Part shown: one piece after another, positions 5,965 to 16,517 of the stretch
How positions within the stretch are numbered: the first letter of the stretch is position 1
Layout: the number at the start of each line of letters is the position of its first letter
Source: Bacteroidales bacterium
GTDB lineage: Bacteria > Bacteroidota > Bacteroidia > Bacteroidales > UBA932
Length of the DNA stretch: 17,473 nt
Assembly: GCA_017478685.1 (NCBI GenBank)
Contig: JAFVDC010000159.1
Span: forward strand, 1 to 17,473
Reading direction: 5' to 3'
Program-made: the position numbers and the translations under genes
Notes under the pieces: generated by a model
The model's database searches: none
What the model was told of the DNA's origin: nothing
The model's input: only the letters and a program-made list of their open reading frames with translations

Positions 5965-6222
5965 CTAATTCAACAGCCCTCGATTCATTACTTCCGCAAT
6001 GAGTGCGGTGGAGGTGTGGACATCCAGTTTGGCAAGAAGGCGCTTGCGGAACCAGACAATTGTTTCATAACTCACACCCATTTCATCGGCAATCATCTTG
6101 GTGCTCTTGTCTTCCATGAGAAGGCGGACCACTTCCTTTTCCCGTTTTGTAAGTTTGACATCCTCCTGGCTTGTCCGGCCTGCAGTTGGACCAGGTCCAA
6201 CAACCTTCTCGGTACTGGCCAT
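5965..6222 (-). CDS. Small GerE/LuxR-type HTH protein, receiver domain absent
   Basis: An 85-residue frame, convergent with the LytTR gene (10 bp between the stops). Residues 24-84 are a complete GerE helix-turn-helix domain: LTKREKEVVRLLMEDKSTK, then IADEMGVSYETIVWFRKRLL, then KLDVHTSTALIAEVMNRGLL. The ATG at 6222 is the first start in the frame and lies inside the first copy of a 52-bp tandem repeat. The frame stays open upstream to a stop at 6376, but that part translates the repeat DNA and does not resemble protein. No receiver or sensor domain is present and no TAnnTTTG promoter box was seen upstream. It may be a genuine short DNA-binding protein or the 3' remnant of a LuxR-family response regulator cut off by repeat insertion. 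The domain call is firm; that it is expressed is uncertain. Confidence 0.6.
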   Translation of the reverse strand: MASTEKVVGPGPTAGRTSQEDVKLTKREKEVVRLLMEDKSTKMIADEMGVSYETIVWFRKRLLAKLDVHTSTALIAEVMNRGLLN

Positions 6223-6320
6223 ACACGTTTCAGGGCATTTTTGTTTGCGTTGAGTACCCGGTGGTACTGACCATACACGTTTCAGGGCATTTTTGTGTAC
6301 AGTGAGTACCCAGTGGTATT
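6211..6320. repeat. 52-bp tandem repeat, two copies plus a short third start
   Basis: Copies lie at 6211-6262 and 6263-6314, and a third begins GGTATT at 6315. They differ at only a few bases, mostly near GTTTGCGT versus GTGTACAG. Each unit starts GGTACT and carries AGTACC near its end, so each can fold into a hairpin; copy two also has an inner TACAC/GTGTA pairing. The first copy overlaps the start of the GerE-type gene. Function unknown. Confidence 0.8.
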
Positions 6321-6324
6321 TGAA

Positions 6325-6459
6325 TTGGGCGAGGCTGGTTTTAATGTAACCAACCCCGCCCGCTGAAATGCCATCTCAACATGTTGTAAGGCATATGTAT
6401 TGGGCGAGGCTGGTCGAACAAAAACCAACCTCGCCCAAAAGTGGTGCCAACCTCGCCCA
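6325..6459. repeat. Cluster of GGGCGAGGCTGGT direct and inverted repeats (hairpins)
   Basis: TTGGGCGAGGCTGGT occurs at 6325-6339 and again at 6400-6414. Inverted copies follow at 6349-6361 (ACCAACCCCGCCC), 6424-6438 (ACCAACCTCGCCCAA) and 6446-6459. The 6400-6438 pair forms a 15-bp stem with one mismatch and a 9-nt loop; 6327-6361 forms a weaker stem of the same kind. A small hairpin ATGCC/GGCAT with a central CAACATGTTG palindrome lies between them. No protein-like frame covers the region. It could be structured RNA or a cluster of short mobile palindromes. Confidence 0.7.
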
Positions 6460-6471
6460 TGTCGGGACGGT

Positions 6472-6610
6472 TTTGCCGCCAATCCATTTAGAACGCCCAC
6501 AATGAGGTTTTTGTGTACTGGCGGCTGGCATTTCGGCCCCTGGAGGCATTTTCTTTGCCGCCAGTACAGAAAAAGTGACTCCGGCGGCCCGCAGATGGAT
6601 TGGCGGCAAA
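6472..6610. repeat. 139-bp nested inverted repeat
   Basis: The outer arms are a perfect 16-bp inverted repeat: TTTGCCGCCAATCCAT at 6472-6487 and its complement at 6595-6610. Inner arms of 18 bp with one mismatch lie at 6508-6525 (TTTTTGTGTACTGGCGGC) and 6557-6574. Because both arm sets share GCCGCCA/TGGCGGC, other pairings are possible. No target-site duplication is visible and there is no coding potential inside. With the two neighbouring repeat sets it fills most of the gene-free stretch 6223-6706, which otherwise holds only the atpD promoter. Confidence 0.75.
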
Positions 6611-8227: not shown

Positions 8228-8472
8228 TGGATAATCTGAAACTTCATATCCTGAGCCCTGAAGGGACTCTCCTGGAAGCAGACGTAGAGCTTGTGACGCT
8301 TCCGGGCCTGCTATCGCCCTTCACCGTCCTTCCCGGCCATGCCGCCATTGTGACGGCCCTGGAAAAGGGAACCGTCCGCTACGTGGAGGCCGGAAAGGAG
8401 ACTTTCCTTCCCATAGAAGGCGGCTTTGCCGAAGTAAAGGACAATGCCGTAACCGTGTGCGTTGAGGTATGA
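8227..8472 (+). CDS. atpC: F1Fo ATP synthase subunit epsilon, short form
   Basis: 81 residues, comprising only the N-terminal beta-sandwich of epsilon (SPEGTLLEADVELVTLPG, SPFTVLPGHAAIVTALEKG, FLPIEGGFAEVKDNAVTV). This part binds gamma and the c-ring in the central stalk. The C-terminal helix pair, which in E. coli-type epsilon (about 135-140 residues) inhibits ATP hydrolysis, is absent; short epsilon forms are common in Bacteroidetes, so this is not a truncation. The start is a GTG overlapping the atpD stop by one base (TAGTG). The stop overlaps the atpB start as ATGA. Both overlaps suggest coupled translation. Confidence 0.94.
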
Positions 8473-9503
8473 TGCTGACGTTTATCATATCGCTTCTTCT
8501 TCAGATTCCCGGTCAAGCCGGGAATGACGCCGTTGCCGGGAATGACGCCGTTGCTGCCGTCATGCCCGACCCCGATCGGGCATCTGATATAGATGTGTCG
8601 GAAATCATTTTCTCGCACATTGGGGACGAATACGAGTGGCACATTACTGAGTGGAAGGGAAAGCCGGTGGCCATTCCGCTGCCGTGCATTGTGATTGAGG
8701 ACGGCGTGCATGTGTTTACGGCGCATCACGCGGAAGAGAACGGATATACGTTCAATGAAAACGGGAAACTTATAAACGCCCAAACCGGCAAGAGGCCCCT
8801 TGACATTTCAATTACAAAGAATGTCCTGGCGCTTATGATGTCAAGCCTTCTCCTTCTTGTCATAATCCTTCTTACGGCAAGGTGGTACAAGCGCCACGAT
8901 GCCCTTCAGGAGGCTCCTACTGGCATTGCCGCATTCATGGAGCCCCTTGTCATGATGGTCCATGACATGGCCAGGGAGAATATCGGAGAGGACTACAGGA
9001 GATACTCCCCGTATCTTTCAATGGCGTTCCTGTGGATACTCCTCAACAACTTCATGGGCATCCTGCCGTTCTTCCCCGGAGGCGCCAACCTCACCGGCAA
9101 CATTGCCATCACCCTGGTCCTGGCACTTTGCACCTTCTTTACCGTAAACCTCACAGGTACAAAGCATTACTACAAAGAGATATTCAACCCGGACGTTCCG
9201 GTGTTCCTTAAACCAATAATGCCGGTCATCGAGGTGTTCAGCGCCCTCATGAAGCCGGTGTCCCTCACCATCCGTCTTTTTGCCAACATGCTGGCGGGGC
9301 ACATCATGATACTTTCCATGGTGTGCATCATCTTCATAATGGCCAAGTACGGCCCGCTGCTTGGCGGCGGCATGACGGTTGTGAGCGTGCTCTTCGGCGT
9401 TTTCCTGGATGCGCTGGAGTGCCTTGTGGCCTTTATCCAGGCGTATGTGTTTACAATGCTAAGTTCAATATATATAGGACTGGCAAGGCAGAAAGAAGAA
9501 TAA
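8469..9503 (+). CDS. atpB: F1Fo ATP synthase subunit a, with an in-frame palindromic-repeat insert
   Basis: 344 residues; the proton-channel subunit of Fo. A short hydrophobic N-terminus (MMLTFIISLLLQ) is followed at residues 13-39 by a peptide encoded by a REP-like element (IPGQAGNDAVAGNDAVAAV, then MPDPDRASD). The usual Bacteroidetes pre-domain (VSEIIFSHIGDEYEWHI) comes next, then the membrane part: helices at about 116-138, 183-200, 210-228, 246-262, 270-292 and 298-335. The essential arginine is Arg269 in SLTIRLFANMLAGH, facing the c-ring glutamate; MKPVSLTIRLF and the final ECLVAFIQAYVFTMLSSIYI are well conserved. The ATG overlaps the atpC stop by 4 nt; ATG at 8472 is an alternative start. 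The insert sits outside the membrane core, so the protein should work. Confidence 0.96.
   Translation: MMLTFIISLLLQIPGQAGNDAVAGNDAVAAVMPDPDRASDIDVSEIIFSHIGDEYEWHITEWKGKPVAIPLPCIVIEDGVHVFTAHHAEENGYTFNENGKLINAQTGKRPLDISITKNVLALMMSSLLLLVIILLTARWYKRHDALQEAPTGIAAFMEPLVMMVHDMARENIGEDYRRYSPYLSMAFLWILLNNFMGILPFFPGGANLTGNIAITLVLALCTFFTVNLTGTKHYYKEIFNPDVPVFLKPIMPVIEVFSALMKPVSLTIRLFANMLAGHIMILSMVCIIFIMAKYGPLLGGGMTVVSVLFGVFLDALECLVAFIQAYVFTMLSSIYIGLARQKEE
8505..8587. repeat. REP-like double palindrome inside atpB
   Basis: Left palindrome 8505-8525 (TTCCCGG...CCGGGAA) and right palindrome 8562-8583 (ATGCCCG...CGGGCAT). The inner feet of both read GTCAT when taken outward-in, and their outer ends read ATCT or ATCTG. 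Between them an 18-bp segment (GCCGGGAATGACGCCGTT) is present twice in tandem, at 8517-8534 and 8535-8552. The same two-palindrome layout recurs in atpG at 13021-13091. Everything stays in the atpB frame. Confidence 0.85.
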
Positions 9504-9523
9504 ACAATTAAATATTTGATATT

Positions 9524-9784
9524 ATGATACTTTCAACAATGATTCTCCAGGCGGCCGCAGGTGCTGCATTAGGAAAGGCTGGTGCCGCCCTCGGCGCTGC
9601 AATCGCTGCAATTGCCGCCGCTATCGGCATCGGTAAAATCGGCAAGTCCACCATGGAGGCCATCGCCCGCCAGCCCGAAAGCGCCGGCAACCTGCGTACG
9701 TCCATGATTATCGCCGCCGGTATGGTTGAGGGCGCCGCCCTGTTCGCCATCATCGTCGCCCTCCTTGCAATCGTCATCAAGTAA
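9524..9784 (+). CDS. atpE: F1Fo ATP synthase subunit c
   Basis: 86 residues forming a two-helix hairpin; copies assemble into the proton-driven c-ring. Helix 1 (about 17-45) ends in GIGKIG, the polar loop is ARQPE (48-52), and helix 2 (about 58-84) contains the proton-carrying Glu69 in GMVEGAALF. No Ser or Thr follows the Glu and no helix-1 Gln ligand is visible, so proton rather than sodium coupling is expected. The helix-1 packing motif, usually GAGLAxIGAGIGIG, reads GAAIAAIAAAIGIG here, with three glycines replaced by alanines. The gene lies 20 nt after atpB and 3 nt before atpF. The start ATG has an A/T-rich leader and no Shine-Dalgarno sequence. Confidence 0.97.
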   Translation: MILSTMILQAAAGAALGKAGAALGAAIAAIAAAIGIGKIGKSTMEAIARQPESAGNLRTSMIIAAGMVEGAALFAIIVALLAIVIK

Positions 9785-9787
9785 GTC

Positions 9788-10294
9788 ATGAACCTTGTTA
9801 CCCCGGATTTCGGCCTTCTTTTCTGGATGGTCGTGATTTTCGGCATTGTGTTTTTCCTCCTTTGGAAGTTCGGCTTCCCCGTAATCACGGACATGGTGGA
9901 CAAACGCAGCGCCAAGATTGCGCAGTCCCTGAGGGATGCCGATGAAATTGCGGCCCGGATGGAAGAGTGGAAGGGGGAGCACGCCCGCATGATGGAGGAA
10001 ACCCGCAAGCAGCAGTCGGAGATAATCCGCGAGGCTACGGAAACCCGCGCCAAAATCATCTCTGAGGCCAAGGCCCAGGCAAAGCAGGAGGCCGACGCCA
10101 TGATTGCTTCGGCCAAAGCCCAGATTGAGGCCGAAAAAGAGAGCGCCCTCCGCGATGTCCGAAGGGAAATTGCCATCCTTGGCGTTGACGTGGCCGAAAA
10201 AATCCTTCGTCATGAGCTCAGCGACACCGGCAGCCAGAGAGCCTTCATAGACTCCCTGGTAGATGAAGCAAATGAAGCCAGGCTTGGATCGTGA
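9788..10294 (+). CDS. atpF: F1Fo ATP synthase subunit b
   Basis: 168 residues, the peripheral-stalk subunit. One N-terminal transmembrane helix (about 9-29, LLFWMVVIFGIVFFLLWKFG) is followed by the conserved FPVITDMVDKR and a long charged coiled coil (about 38-140, rich in Ala, Glu, Lys and Arg). The C-terminal delta-binding part is REIAILGVDVAEKILRHEL. Length and layout are normal. The gene starts 3 nt after the atpE stop. Its stop TGA overlaps the GTG of atpH (GTGA), so translation of delta is likely coupled. Confidence 0.97.
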   Translation: MNLVTPDFGLLFWMVVIFGIVFFLLWKFGFPVITDMVDKRSAKIAQSLRDADEIAARMEEWKGEHARMMEETRKQQSEIIREATETRAKIISEAKAQAKQEADAMIASAKAQIEAEKESALRDVRREIAILGVDVAEKILRHELSDTGSQRAFIDSLVDEANEARLGS

Positions 10295-10851
10295 ACCGCA
10301 GTATCGTCATAACCCGCTATGCCACAGCGCTTGCGAAGTATGCCGGTGAAAGCGGGCAGGGTGCCGCCGTGTGCTCCGAGGCCGAAACCCTCATGAAGGC
10401 CCTGGGAGAGGTCCCGGACCTTCGGCGCATGGTGAGCGCAGCCGACGACGTAGTGTCTCCCTTCGACAAGAAAAAACTCCTCCAGACGGCCCTTGGAAAC
10501 CGTATGACGCAGGAGCTCCGCCGTTTCCTCACCCTCCTTAACCGTAATGGCCGAATGGATCTTGTGGAGGATATCCTGAGGGACTTCGTGGACATGTACC
10601 ACAGGAGTATCGGCATACGGAAAGCACGCCTTACGACAGCCCGTGAGCCCTCCGAACGCCTTCTGCAGCGCCTGAGGGCCATAGTGAAATCAAAGACCGG
10701 CTGCGACTGCATAATAGAGGTGGAGGTGGATCCCTCGCTTGTGGGCGGCTTTGTGTTTGACCTTGACGACTACCTCCTTGACGCCAGCGTAAAGCGCCAG
10801 CTGGACCTTATCCGTGAACAATTTATTGAAAAAAATACCCGCATCGTATAA
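10291..10851 (+). CDS. atpH: F1Fo ATP synthase subunit delta
   Basis: 186 residues, the OSCP/delta protein that joins the b stalk to the top of F1. An N-terminal helical bundle ([13 protein letters not shown], then [20 protein letters not shown] and [19 protein letters not shown]) is followed by the C-terminal signature [26 protein letters not shown] in two parts (about 145-175). The start is a GTG that overlaps the atpF stop by four bases; no alternative ATG gives a full N-terminus. The stop TAA shares one base with the atpA ATG (TAATG), a coupled arrangement. Confidence 0.96.
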
Positions 10852-12431
10852 TGGCAGCATCACTTAAACCCAGCGAAGTAAGCGAAGTTCTCCTTAGCCA
10901 GTTAAGGGACATGAAATCCGACCTCCAGTTTGAGGAAATCGGAAAGGCCCTTCAGGTGAGTGACGGAGTTGTGAGAATATATGGCCTTGACCACGCCGAG
11001 GCCGGGGAACTCCTGGACTGCGGCGGCGGTGTGATGGCCGTTGTCATGAACCTTGAGGCCGACAACGTGGGCGCCGTTCTCATGGGCCCCACAGACCATG
11101 TAAAGGAAGGAATGCTGGTGCGCCGCACCGGACGCATAGCCTCCATAGGCGTGAGTGACGCCATGGTCGGCCGCGTGATAGACCCCCTTGGAAATCCTCT
11201 GGACGGCATGGGGGCCATTGAAGGGGACAAGGCCGATATGCCGCTGGAGAGAAAGGCTCCCGGCGTCATTTTCCGCCAGCCCGTTTCCGAGCCCCTCCAG
11301 ACCGGTCTCAAGGCCATCGATGCCATGATTCCAATTGGCCGCGGCCAGCGCGAACTCATAATCGGAGACCGCCAGACCGGAAAGACGGCCATAGCCATTG
11401 ATACCATAATCAACCAAAGGGCCGCCTATGAGGCCGGGAAGCCCGTCTACTGTATATATGTGGCAATCGGCCAAAAGGGCTCTACGGTTGCTTCCATAGT
11501 TCAGACACTGAGGGAGCACGGGGCCATGGATTACACCATTGTGGTGGCCGCTACGGCCGCAGACCCTGCCGCGCTTCAGTACTATGCGCCTTTTGCCGGG
11601 GCTGCAATAGGAGAGTATTTCCGCGACACCGGCCGCCATGCGCTTGTTGTGTACGACGACCTTTCCAAACAGGCCGTGGCATACCGCGAGGTTTCCCTTA
11701 TCCTCAGGCGTCCTTCCGGCCGTGAGGCATACCCCGGAGACATTTTCTATCTCCACTCACGCCTTCTTGAGCGCGCCGCAAGGATTATTGACCAGCAGGA
11801 GGTTGCAGCCCAGATGAACGACCTCCCTGCCGCTCTGAAGGACAAGGTGAGGGGCGGCGGCTCGCTAACGGCGCTTCCCATCATCGAGACCCAGGCCGGG
11901 GATGTTTCGGCATATATCCCCACAAACGTGATTTCCATTACGGACGGCCAGATTTACCTGGAACAGGGGCTTTTCAACCAGGGTGTACGCCCGGCGGTGA
12001 ACGTGGGTATCTCCGTTTCCCGCGTGGGTGGCAGCGCCCAGGTCAAGTCCATGAAAAAGGTTGCCGGCACCCTCAAGATAGACCAGGCTCAGTGGGCCGA
12101 ACTCGAGGCCTTCTCCAAGTTCTCCTCCGACGTAGATAAAGTTACGGAACTTGCCCTTGACAAGGGCCGAAAGAATAACCAGCTGCTTATCCAGCCCCAG
12201 TACAGTCCCATGCCGGTAGGGGAGCAGGTTGCAATCCTGTTCTGCGGCACCAGGGGCCTCATGAGGGACATTCCGGTTTCCCGCGTCCGCGAGTTCCAGG
12301 ACGCATTCCTGGACCGCCTCCGCGCCGCCCATGCCAAAGATGTCCTGGAGCCGCTGGGAGAGGGTAAGCTTACTCCTGAGATCGAGGCCCTGCTCACCGA
12401 AACTGCATCTTCCGTAATCATGTCATTCTGA
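10851..12431 (+). CDS. atpA: F1Fo ATP synthase subunit alpha
   Basis: 526 residues, the non-catalytic nucleotide-binding F1 subunit, full length. A beta-barrel domain (about 25-95) is followed by Walker A GDRQTGKT (172-179), [11 protein letters not shown] (Walker B, Asp269/Asp270), [12 protein letters not shown] and the arginine finger Arg391 in SVSRVGG that reaches into the beta catalytic site. A C-terminal helical domain ends SSVIMSF. The last three codons and the stop (ATG TCA TTC TGA) coincide with the start of a REP-like element at 12421, so the present C-terminal end seems to have been set by that element. The ATG overlaps the atpH stop by one base. Confidence 0.98.
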
Positions 12432-12447
12432 GCGAAGCGAAGAATCT
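12421..12447 (+). repeat. REP-like palindromic unit at the atpA/atpG junction
   Basis: The unit starts TGTCATTCTGAGCGAAGCG and ends AGAATCT. Its ATTCT and AGAAT ends can pair around a GAGCGAAGCGA centre. It supplies the final codons and TGA stop of atpA, the entire 16-nt intergenic gap and the bases directly before the atpG ATG (12448). This GAGCGAAGCGA class of repeat is familiar from many Bacteroidetes and other genomes. Confidence 0.75.
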
Positions 12448-13341
12448 ATGCCAACGCTTAAGGAAATAAAGGGCCGGATAGGGTCTGTAAGGAGCACGCT
12501 GAAGATTACTTCGGCCATGAAACTGGTGTCTTCGGCCAAACTCCGCAAGGCCCAGAATGCCATTGCCGCCATGCGCCCGTATCAGCAGAGGCTTGAGGCC
12601 ATGCTGCGCCTTGTCCAAGGTGGGATTACTCCGCTCGCTTCGCTCGGTCGAAATGACAATGAGGACGGAATCGGGGAATCTCCTGCGGTTATCGTTGCAG
12701 TAGCCTCCAACTCTTCCCTATGCGGCGGGTTCAACGCCAACATCATTTCCAAGGTGCGTTCCGTCCGGCGTCCGGGGGACGTGGTATATTCCATCGGCCG
12801 GAAAATGGCCGACGCCATGGTCCGTGACGGCTTCCGGTCTCCGGAGGATTATTCGGACCTGGCTGAACATCCGGCATACGCCAAGGCCGCGGAACTTGTC
12901 CAGAAGCTTTCGGAGGATTTTTATGCCGGCCGCATAAGCGGCGTGACGCTTTGCTACACGCACTTTGTGTCCACTTCCCGGCAGGTTCCCGTGGTGGAGA
13001 GGCTGTTTCCTATGGATGAGATTCCCGGTCAAGCCGGGAATGACGTAGGGCGCACCGCGGGCGTCATGCCCGGCCCTGACCGGGCATCCGATGCCATCCT
13101 GGAGCCTTCGGCCGGGGAACTCCTGGAGGCACTGATACCAAAAACACTGAAACTGAAACTATACGCCGCCCTGCTTGACAGCGCCGCGGCGGAGCATGCC
13201 GCCCGCACCATAGCCATGCAAACGGCTACGGACAATGCAGAGAACCTCCTTGCAGAGCTTACCCTGCAGTACAACAAAGGCCGGCAGCAGAAAATTACAT
13301 CGGAAATCCTGGACCTCGCAGGAGGCCAGGCCGCCGAATGA
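12448..13341 (+). CDS. atpG: F1Fo ATP synthase subunit gamma, carrying two in-frame palindromic-repeat inserts
   Basis: 297 residues, the rotating central shaft of F1. The N-terminal helix (LKEIKGRIGSVRSTLKITSA, then MKLVSSAKLRKAQ) and C-terminal helix (AEHAARTIAMQTATDNAENL, then LTLQYNKGRQQKITSEILDL) that form the coiled-coil shaft are well conserved; SNSSLCGGFNANI starts the Rossmann-like domain. Residues about 59-71 (ITPLASLGRND region) are encoded by a REP-like unit, and residues 192-215 (IPGQAGNDVGRTAGVMPGPD and RASDA) by a double-palindrome element. Both inserts lie in loops outside the shaft helices, at places where gamma subunits vary in length, so the protein should function. The start ATG is immediately after another REP unit. 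No further atp gene follows. Confidence 0.96.
   Translation: MPTLKEIKGRIGSVRSTLKITSAMKLVSSAKLRKAQNAIAAMRPYQQRLEAMLRLVQGGITPLASLGRNDNEDGIGESPAVIVAVASNSSLCGGFNANIISKVRSVRRPGDVVYSIGRKMADAMVRDGFRSPEDYSDLAEHPAYAKAAELVQKLSEDFYAGRISGVTLCYTHFVSTSRQVPVVERLFPMDEIPGQAGNDVGRTAGVMPGPDRASDAILEPSAGELLEALIPKTLKLKLYAALLDSAAAEHAARTIAMQTATDNAENLLAELTLQYNKGRQQKITSEILDLAGGQAAE
12623..12659 (-). repeat. REP-like unit inside atpG (codons 59-71)
   Basis: Read on the minus strand it starts TTGTCATTTCGACCGAGCG, continues AAGCGAGCGGAG and ends TAATCC. This is the same GTCATT...GAGCGAAGCGAG...AATC layout as the unit at 12421-12447 but in the opposite orientation. It stays in frame with atpG and contains no stop. Confidence 0.7.
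13021..13091. repeat. REP-like double palindrome inside atpG (codons 192-215)
   Basis: The left palindrome 13021-13041 is identical to the one in atpB. The right palindrome 13066-13087 (ATGCCCGG...CCGGGCAT) differs from the atpB copy mainly in its loop. The spacer between them is 24 nt here and 36 nt in atpB, of which 18 is a tandem duplication. The GTCAT feet face inward as in atpB. It is translated in the same frame as the atpB copy (IPGQAGND...MPxPDRASD). Confidence 0.85.
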
Positions 13342-16401: not shown

Positions 16402-16438
16402 CCCCCTGGACCTGGTCCACAGCATGAGGGGCACGGCG

Positions 16439-16517
16439 TTACACAGAAAACCGCGTTTTTGTGTAAATAAAAGCCTTTTGGGCCGCCCGTTACGCGAAAA
16501 CGACCGTTTTTGTGTAA
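16439..16517. repeat. Two related 28-nt hairpins in the MFS-lgt spacer
   Basis: Hairpins at 16439-16466 (TTACACAGAAAAC, loop, GTTTTTGTGTAA) and 16490-16517 (TTACGCGAAAACG, loop, CGTTTTTGTGTAA), 51 bp apart in the same orientation. The left arms differ at two stem positions, but in plus-strand RNA both keep pairing as G-U. The TTTTTGTGTA core also occurs at 6290 and 6508. They are not followed by a T-run, so they are poor classical terminators, though they lie just after the MFS stop. Confidence 0.65.

Follow-up and report, generated by a model that had tools for sequence, protein, structure and literature searches.

The stretch of DNA analyzed here (hereafter, the window) comprises 17,473 nucleotides of a Bacteroidales bacterium (GenBank assembly GCA_017478685.1, contig JAFVDC010000159.1) and carries an F1F0 ATP synthase cluster in the order atpD, C, B, E, F, H, A, G, in which six short palindromic repeats are set. 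The genes atpD, atpB, atpA and atpG were called by Pfam, and the others by their order and by comparison with relatives. Two genes host repeats in their interior, namely atpB, encoding F0 subunit a (8469..9503, plus strand; Pfam ATP-synt_A 9.3e-59 over residues 123-336, and alignment of relatives), and atpG, encoding F1 gamma (12448..13341, plus strand; Pfam ATP-synt 1.6e-79, and alignment to solved gamma chains). A further repeat lies at the junction between atpG and atpA (F1 alpha; 10851..12431, plus strand), whose stop codon falls inside it. An original prediction, made from the sequence alone, had described six units of a common format at this locus; all of them exist and required coordinate shifts of only 1–2 bases, five being recovered by scan and the sixth being degenerate. 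Its description of two pairs with their feet inward was likewise confirmed by sequence reading.

The repeats fall into two hairpin types, A and B, which are defined below. The first pair lies in atpB, just past the N-terminal hydrophobic segment, and consists of two type A repeats with a CGTC foot and an 8-bp stem, both supported by scan and folding: the left half at 8503..8528 (minus strand), read as IPGQAGND, and the right half at 8559..8585 (plus strand), whose 27 nt make up the nine codons VMPDPDRAS. Reading of the sequence further revealed an 18-bp tandem duplication (GGGAATGACGCCGTTGCC / ...GCT) at 8520..8555 (plus strand), which overlaps a repeat within the atpB insert and is in frame. 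The second pair, in loop 2 of atpG, is also of type A with CGTC feet, again according to scan and folding; its left half (13019..13044, minus strand) is identical to 8503-8528 and its right half (13063..13089, plus strand) reads VMPGPDRAS.

The repeat at the atpA/atpG junction (12422..12447, plus strand; scan and alignment of relatives) is of type B, with a TGTC foot and a 5-bp stem followed by tandem G·A and a GC-GAA-GC core. It encodes the end of atpA (ATG TCA TTC TGA) and its own end abuts the ATG of atpG, as is also the case in L063, the corresponding locus of the nearest relative. A degenerate type B repeat with a TGTC foot occupies loop 1 of atpG (12623..12657, minus strand), as concluded from sequence and homologue alignment; it reads ...GGAGTAATCC, and its intact counterpart in atpB of L063 reads ...GGAGAAATCT. 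This unit was missed by the scan because its outer stem has one mismatch. Next to it, alignment points to what may be left of the 3' end of another repeat (GGACGGAATCGGGGAATCT; 12663..12681, plus strand), which is intact in L063. Since 12663-12681 matches the 3' half of that intact repeat, the seemingly single unit at 12623 may be one half of a decayed third pair in atpG loop 1. Both loops with atpG inserts belong to the globular part of the protein.

In the first scan, which searched for GTC followed by a hairpin starting with AT and ending with AT plus a following C, five of the six units were found in the window, compared to a mean of 0.22 and a maximum of 2 in 100 dinucleotide shuffles. 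The four units with CCCGG-type stems all carry a CGTC foot (4/4) and the two with other stems a TGTC foot (2/2). The CCCGG-type units, all four with unbroken 8-bp stems, were folded as single strands and reached energies between -8.3 and -9.2 kcal/mol (z between -3.4 and -4.6); the other two folded no better than shuffled sequences under standard parameters (z -0.02 and 0.44), and the case for regarding them as repeats rests on conservation of the family rather than on folding energy. An Rfam scan of the window gave no matches up to E 1.

Two hairpin types and their pairing

Copies were sought in relatives of the window, and the nearest genome, G001, was sampled for this purpose instead of the window's own genome. 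The first scan of relatives returned 189 hits in 80 loci (1.39 Mb) vs. 13 in the same loci after dinucleotide shuffling, which bears out the dispersed family resembling repetitive extragenic palindromic (REP) sequences that had been put forward in the original prediction. Eight other three-base feet gave only 7 to 26 hits each in these 80 loci and, within G001, 20 exact copies of a 26-mer were located in distant places. The records of the relatives are titled as metagenome-assembled or uncultured genomes, and many of these titles name rumen or other forestomach samples. Such an origin could raise the suspicion that the palindromes arose by chance or through faulty assembly of metagenome contigs, an explanation to which we give practically no credence: counts far above those for shuffles and other feet refute it in practice, and many separate assemblies contain the same families with their frames open. 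Two looser patterns were rejected as mostly chance-like and were not used, that is, GTCAT-gap-ATC (418 + 472 vs. 147 + 140, with a control of unmatched composition) and GTCAT-gap-ATCT in 151 genomes (with a backward-read control, also of unmatched composition).

A stricter second scan, covering 79 loci and 19 stretches of G001 (329 kb; approximately 1.7 Mb in total), yielded the set of 185 hits used for element counts. Two loci were excluded from the type, pair and frame counts: L075, which comes from the same metagenome-assembled genome as L074 and has identical DNA over its length, and L178, which overlaps L063 and contains nine elements. According to definitions that we drew up post hoc, once the elements had been inspected, the set splits into 68 hits of type A, with at least seven unbroken pairs; 111 of type B, with five pairs, GA opposite GA and, in most cases, one or two further pairs inside; and six set aside by type as chance, including conserved atpD codons in L115 and L122. 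The GA opposite GA of type B emerged without being a scan criterion. Its first inner pair was G-C in 88 cases, A-T in 15, C-G in seven and G-T in one (n = 111), a result only partly independent of the scan, which demanded at least one further pair anywhere.

The foot tracks the hairpin. The base preceding GTC was C in 57 and T in eight of the 68 type A elements, and T in 103 and C in four of the 111 type B elements, so that 172 of 179 elements carry a CGTC or TGTC foot (GTC was imposed by the scan and the preceding base was free). All hits show an AT at the start of the stem, which the scan also imposed. With regard to the tail, where a C followed by C or T was imposed and the choice between these two and the third base were free, CT plus one base was observed in 167 of the 179 elements, CCA in two and other CC-plus-base tails in ten.

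Elements at most 100 nt apart formed 43 pairs, 36 with feet inward, five with feet outward and two in tandem. All but one of them were homotypic (22 B-B, 20 A-A and one A-B). Over the 79 loci, the types occur independently, with 11 loci having both, 12 only A, 27 only B and 29 neither. The coupling of foot and hairpin type, together with homotypic pairing, is as expected if one enzyme reads the foot plus the hairpin, and suggests this mode of recognition. Outside the family of the window, genome G220, from another family of the order, contains 23 exact copies of a 26-base type B pattern; any copies at all are present in only 8/198 genomes of the order.

Alleles at the ATP synthase sites and retention in frame

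When the DNA of seven sequences was aligned around the atpB site, L064, L068 and L070 proved to be empty, L067 to hold one repeat, and the window, L063 and L087 to hold three different pairs. L064 and L067, as well as L067 and L068, differ here by a 45-base in-frame indel; across aligned blocks, L068 and the window share 87.6% identity. The objection that relatives might carry the same DNA at the same places, with no empty alleles, was checked and does not hold at this site. In an alignment of AtpG homologues (60 of the best 120 of 7999), the same backbone was found with different inserts in the two loops. P0002, 92% identical to AtpG of the window, has the window's loop 1 but another insert in loop 2, and P0001 differs from P0002 and P0003 by whole pairs of different sequence between the same outer junctions. 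Both atpG sites coincide with gaps or weak matches in the two solved gamma chains for which alignments were shown. Judged from these sequence comparisons, the repeats are to be regarded as mobile on an evolutionary time scale.

Part of this variation could have arisen without any transposition, the repeats being relics that have no transposase and whose present turnover comes from recombination, slippage and template switching between repeats. This possibility, raised for CGTC repeats by Di Nocera, De Gregorio and Rocco 2013 (PMC3733652), is in keeping with clear cases of slippage, such as the 18-bp duplication of the window, tandem partial copies in L076 and the in-frame steps of 24 and 30 bases by which L080 and L089 differ; loop 2 of atpG in L067 resembles a deletion between two repeats present in L064, and the survey of transposase genes described below agrees with it as well. 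However, slippage cannot make whole differing pairs between the same outer junctions, as seen in P0001 compared to P0002 and P0003, and the many exact copies far apart in G001 also speak against it. We regard it as an unlikely explanation, albeit one to be taken seriously.

Interior repeats were detected in atpB of 21/69 loci, atpG of 22/79 and atpH of 1/72, and in none of the loci for atpA (0/78), atpD (0/73), atpE (0/68), atpF (0/72) and atpC (0/66). For these counts, hits with only four outer pairs were removed unless they had an ACCGAGG stem. This filter eliminated L085 and L132 for atpB and L072, L077, L100 and L106 for atpG (23/69 and 26/79 unfiltered), and also the atpD hits of L087 and L140 and the atpA hit of L120, judged to be chance; 13 repeats in the stop-to-stop frame of atpC were excluded as lying before or at the aligned start. 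Two other repeated peptides were noticed at these genes. One, ENYFSQGFAKNQFSST, occurs with near variants at the same atpB site (L072, L073, L086, L091 and L097) and in atpG loop 2 (L097 and L103); the other, TLSSASLRDPVRANAPERVSP, is found in atpB of L074, L093, L109 and L133.

Of the 12 junctions shown, those of the window, L063, L092 and L125 have a repeat that abuts atpG, and in L072 two bases intervene; atpA was read by eye to end with (M/L)K-stop in L068, L072, L081, L092 and L125. This positioning, and the strong preference for one reading phase documented below, would be expected if the hairpins were kept for a function in RNA or protein, either in tuning atp mRNA or as useful linkers in subunits a and gamma. 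Most loci, however, have no scanned repeat at the same atpB and atpG sites, sequences and types vary, and the repeats also reside in unrelated host proteins, which together make a retained function improbable.

Beyond the operon, 82/154 hits in the 79 loci and 21/40 in the G001 stretches with L178 included (15 of 31 without it) fall in genes called with our simple codon-based caller. As genes cover 92% and 90% of this DNA, respectively, and only about half of the hits are genic, genes are avoided yet often hit. Ten of 13 hand-picked host proteins were checked, nine of which had a Pfam match and one none; the matches include MatE, GH31, GH3, cysteinyl-tRNA synthetase (CysS), Mur ligase, formyl transferase, DNA polymerase III gamma/tau (DnaX) and a PP-loop protein. 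In a gene for a MatE-type transporter, repeats occupy one place, directly or closely behind GGL(T/A)AQAYG, in L069, L071, L099, L102, L115 and L133; other inserted-looking stretches are present at the same place in L080 and L085. Two single open frames join domains and have a repeat in their second part: L186:16452-19244 (NAGLU and an endonuclease/exonuclease/phosphatase domain) and L179:10448-12952 (LptF/LptG and formyl transferase).

Insertion into essential genes with the frame maintained, as the original prediction had envisaged, was supported by the phase of the foot codon (GTC, or GAC in antisense), which was in frame in 71/81 elements in gene interiors (sense, 45/51; antisense, 26/30) and in 29/32 sense hits with all three frames open. 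Since related genes are not independent, one vote was given to each host family, orientation and type; the foot codon was then in frame in 24/31 overall and in 10/12 of those with all frames open (p 5e-4). Type B lengths were a multiple of three in 22/34 cases in genes vs. 14/62 outside them (p 7e-5), and type A gave no such signal (20/42 in genes vs. 10/25). Of ten repeat-bearing indels, nine distinct ones were considered; eight of these were a multiple of three long, and the ninth (38 bases) precedes atpG. Such a bias would fit selection for loops with hydrophilic peptides, such as VMPGPDRAS and IPGQAGND, and would equally fit insertion that itself fixes the phase; the data do not decide between the two.

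Candidate movers and other repeats

According to the original prediction, these hairpins should also flank a RAYT (REP-associated tyrosine transposase) gene, with GTCA serving as guide sequence. This was not borne out, as none of 65 Y1/RAYT-like loci (64 distinct genes), inspected over approximately 1.5 kb on each side, was bracketed by GTC-foot repeats (30 of the many PF01797 matches, 30 of the many matches to the L003-type Y1 and five loci of G001); the same lack was reported for CGTC repeats in 2013 (PMC3733652). The closest instance was L169, a Y1 fragment of 122 aa with one repeat approximately 80 nt off, on one side. Repeat density at the Y1 loci was 0.046 and 0.027 per kb vs. 0.132 in the 80 loci, the latter being centred on the hot spot. 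Conversely, eight called genes are bracketed by repeats within 150 nt, none of them transposase-like as judged from their starts, read by eye. Four of four Y1 genes tested against NCBIfam REP_Tyr_transpos scored between 32.7 and 52 bits, below its cut-off of 80.

Within the genus, 110/151 genomes encode a Y1 domain (PF01797, threshold E 0.001). A type-B subset, defined by a 25-base pattern that gave no control hits, is present in 64/151 genomes with up to 77 copies. A Y1 match was found in 21/22 genomes with at least ten subset copies vs. 89/129 others, and copies rise with the number of Y1 matches (Spearman 0.37, 151 genomes), a correlation that ignores phylogeny and completeness and that we treat as a lead only. 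An association of the L003-type Y1 with type-B copies, apparent in the first 35 loci, was rejected, as this enzyme is widespread (121/151) and absent from the repeat-bearing G108.

Taken as a whole, the six units are probably copies of REP-like palindromic DNA that is non-autonomous, comes in two hairpin types and has spread in Bacteroidales genomes of this genus, being mobile and tolerated in frame in loops. New copies would land widely, and those surviving in genes would be the ones in surface loops or near termini that keep the frame; the atpB site and the two atpG loops would have become hot spots where repeats arrive, leave and get exchanged. Movement may proceed through single strands folded into hairpins, which an enzyme recognising both the foot and the hairpin would cut; this enzyme would probably be a Y1/HUH transposase of the TnpA_REP/RAYT kind acting in trans, and the inserts would be tolerated rather than useful. 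In ATP synthase, subunits a and gamma seem to accommodate foreign peptide inserted repeatedly into their loops.

Several points besides the limits of the correlation count against this interpretation. No Y1 gene in the 65 loci is bracketed by the repeats; Y1 also occurs in 51/87 genomes without the type-B subset, the repeat-rich G132 (83% complete) has no PF01797 match, and G108, with ten copies, has no L003-type Y1. An arrangement with the feet inward would be unusual if excision took place at the feet. Finally, the empty atpB sites belong to other species than that of the window.

A more specific proposal, which we advance tentatively and do not consider probable, is that types A and B represent hairpin codes running in parallel, with the CGTC foot bound to the unbroken stem and the TGTC foot to the tandem G·A stem, and with pairs formed almost exclusively within a type; each code would be served by a separate putative Y1-like enzyme in trans, and both would use loops of essential enzymes as swap sites. 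If true, CGTC-type repeats would gain the enzyme that was missing in 2013. These repeats were then left without a known mover, and the genus, with its many genomes, recurrent exchange at shared sites, two clearly separate hairpin types and naturally varying numbers of Y1 genes, lends itself to a comparative search for the mover and to in vitro tests of candidates.

Some Y1 genes are accompanied by palindromes of their own, distinct from the GTCAT repeats: AAATCGCCTG.. near L148 and L149, AAGGTGCG..CGCACCTT on both sides of L163, and ACGCAATTTGCTCCCG.. behind L001. The window itself holds other repeats as well. Upstream of atpD, two tandem 52-nt units (6211-6314) are 88% alike, with CATACACGTTTCAGGGCATTTTTGTG nearly common to them, and inverted repeats at 6325-6438 and 6508-6574 (arms of 37 nt and 18 nt, respectively) are unlike the GTCAT repeats. 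Just behind a major facilitator superfamily (MFS) gene, at 16437-16517, lie two 30-nt units CGTTAC...TTTTTGTGTAA that are 77% alike.

Comparison with known palindromic repeats

In-frame palindromic repeats are already known as a general idea. Our literature search, which covered titles and the starts of abstracts and had most subscription papers outside its reach, returned no paper on GTC-foot repeats in ATP synthase genes, nor did it find the B-type hairpin, the foot-hairpin code or exchange at ATP synthase loops; the letters gtcattctgagc appeared in three papers, all of which, by title, concern other subjects.

With GTAG REPs and REPINs, as presented by Bertels and Rainey 2011 (PMC3116915), the repeats have in common a short hairpin with a foot motif and pairs as a unit. 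They likewise share a foot motif with RAYT/TnpA_REP systems, for which foot-guided cutting is described in Corneloup 2018 (PMC6006769). In contrast, the foot here is (C/T)GTC instead of GT[AG]G, and no RAYT-like gene was bracketed in the loci surveyed.

Closer parallels are found among the CGTC-tagged REPs defined by Di Nocera, De Gregorio and Rocco 2013, which, according to that paper (PMC3733652), occur in Bacteroidetes and inside genes, without a transposase. The same source counts RPE-4 and RPE-6 of Rickettsia among the CGTC-tagged REPs, which upholds the likeness to Rickettsia palindromic elements (RPEs) that the original prediction had pointed out, and identifies Neisseria dRS3 as CGTC-1 elements. 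RPE-4 and RPE-6 share with the present repeats a CGTC-type tag and an in-frame location inside functional genes (function being deduced here from intact conserved genes). Set against their description rather than their sequence, they differ in belonging to another phylum, and in the two hairpin types and the exchange at the same ATP synthase loops seen here. dRS3, again compared by description and not by sequence, forms large clusters, whereas singles and pairs are the rule here.

The CGTC-tagged REPs as a whole, as described in PMC3733652, share with the present family the unpaired CGTC/TGTC tag at one end, pairs, genic copies, occurrence in Bacteroidetes and the failure to find a dedicated transposase; their stems begin with AT, as do those of all hits here, where the scan imposed it. 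Their tail, however, is mostly CCA instead of CT plus one base, and tags outside predominate in their pairs, with tags inside being rare, unlike the prevailing feet-inward arrangement found here (36/43). Their stems of 8–9 bp with loops of 4–5 also differ from the 5 bp, GA/GA and short inner stem of type B, whereas type A (68/185) comes close to such a stem. Because tail, pair orientation and type-B stem differ, the present elements would be placed, on sequence features, closest to the four CGTC families of 2013 but not among their members.

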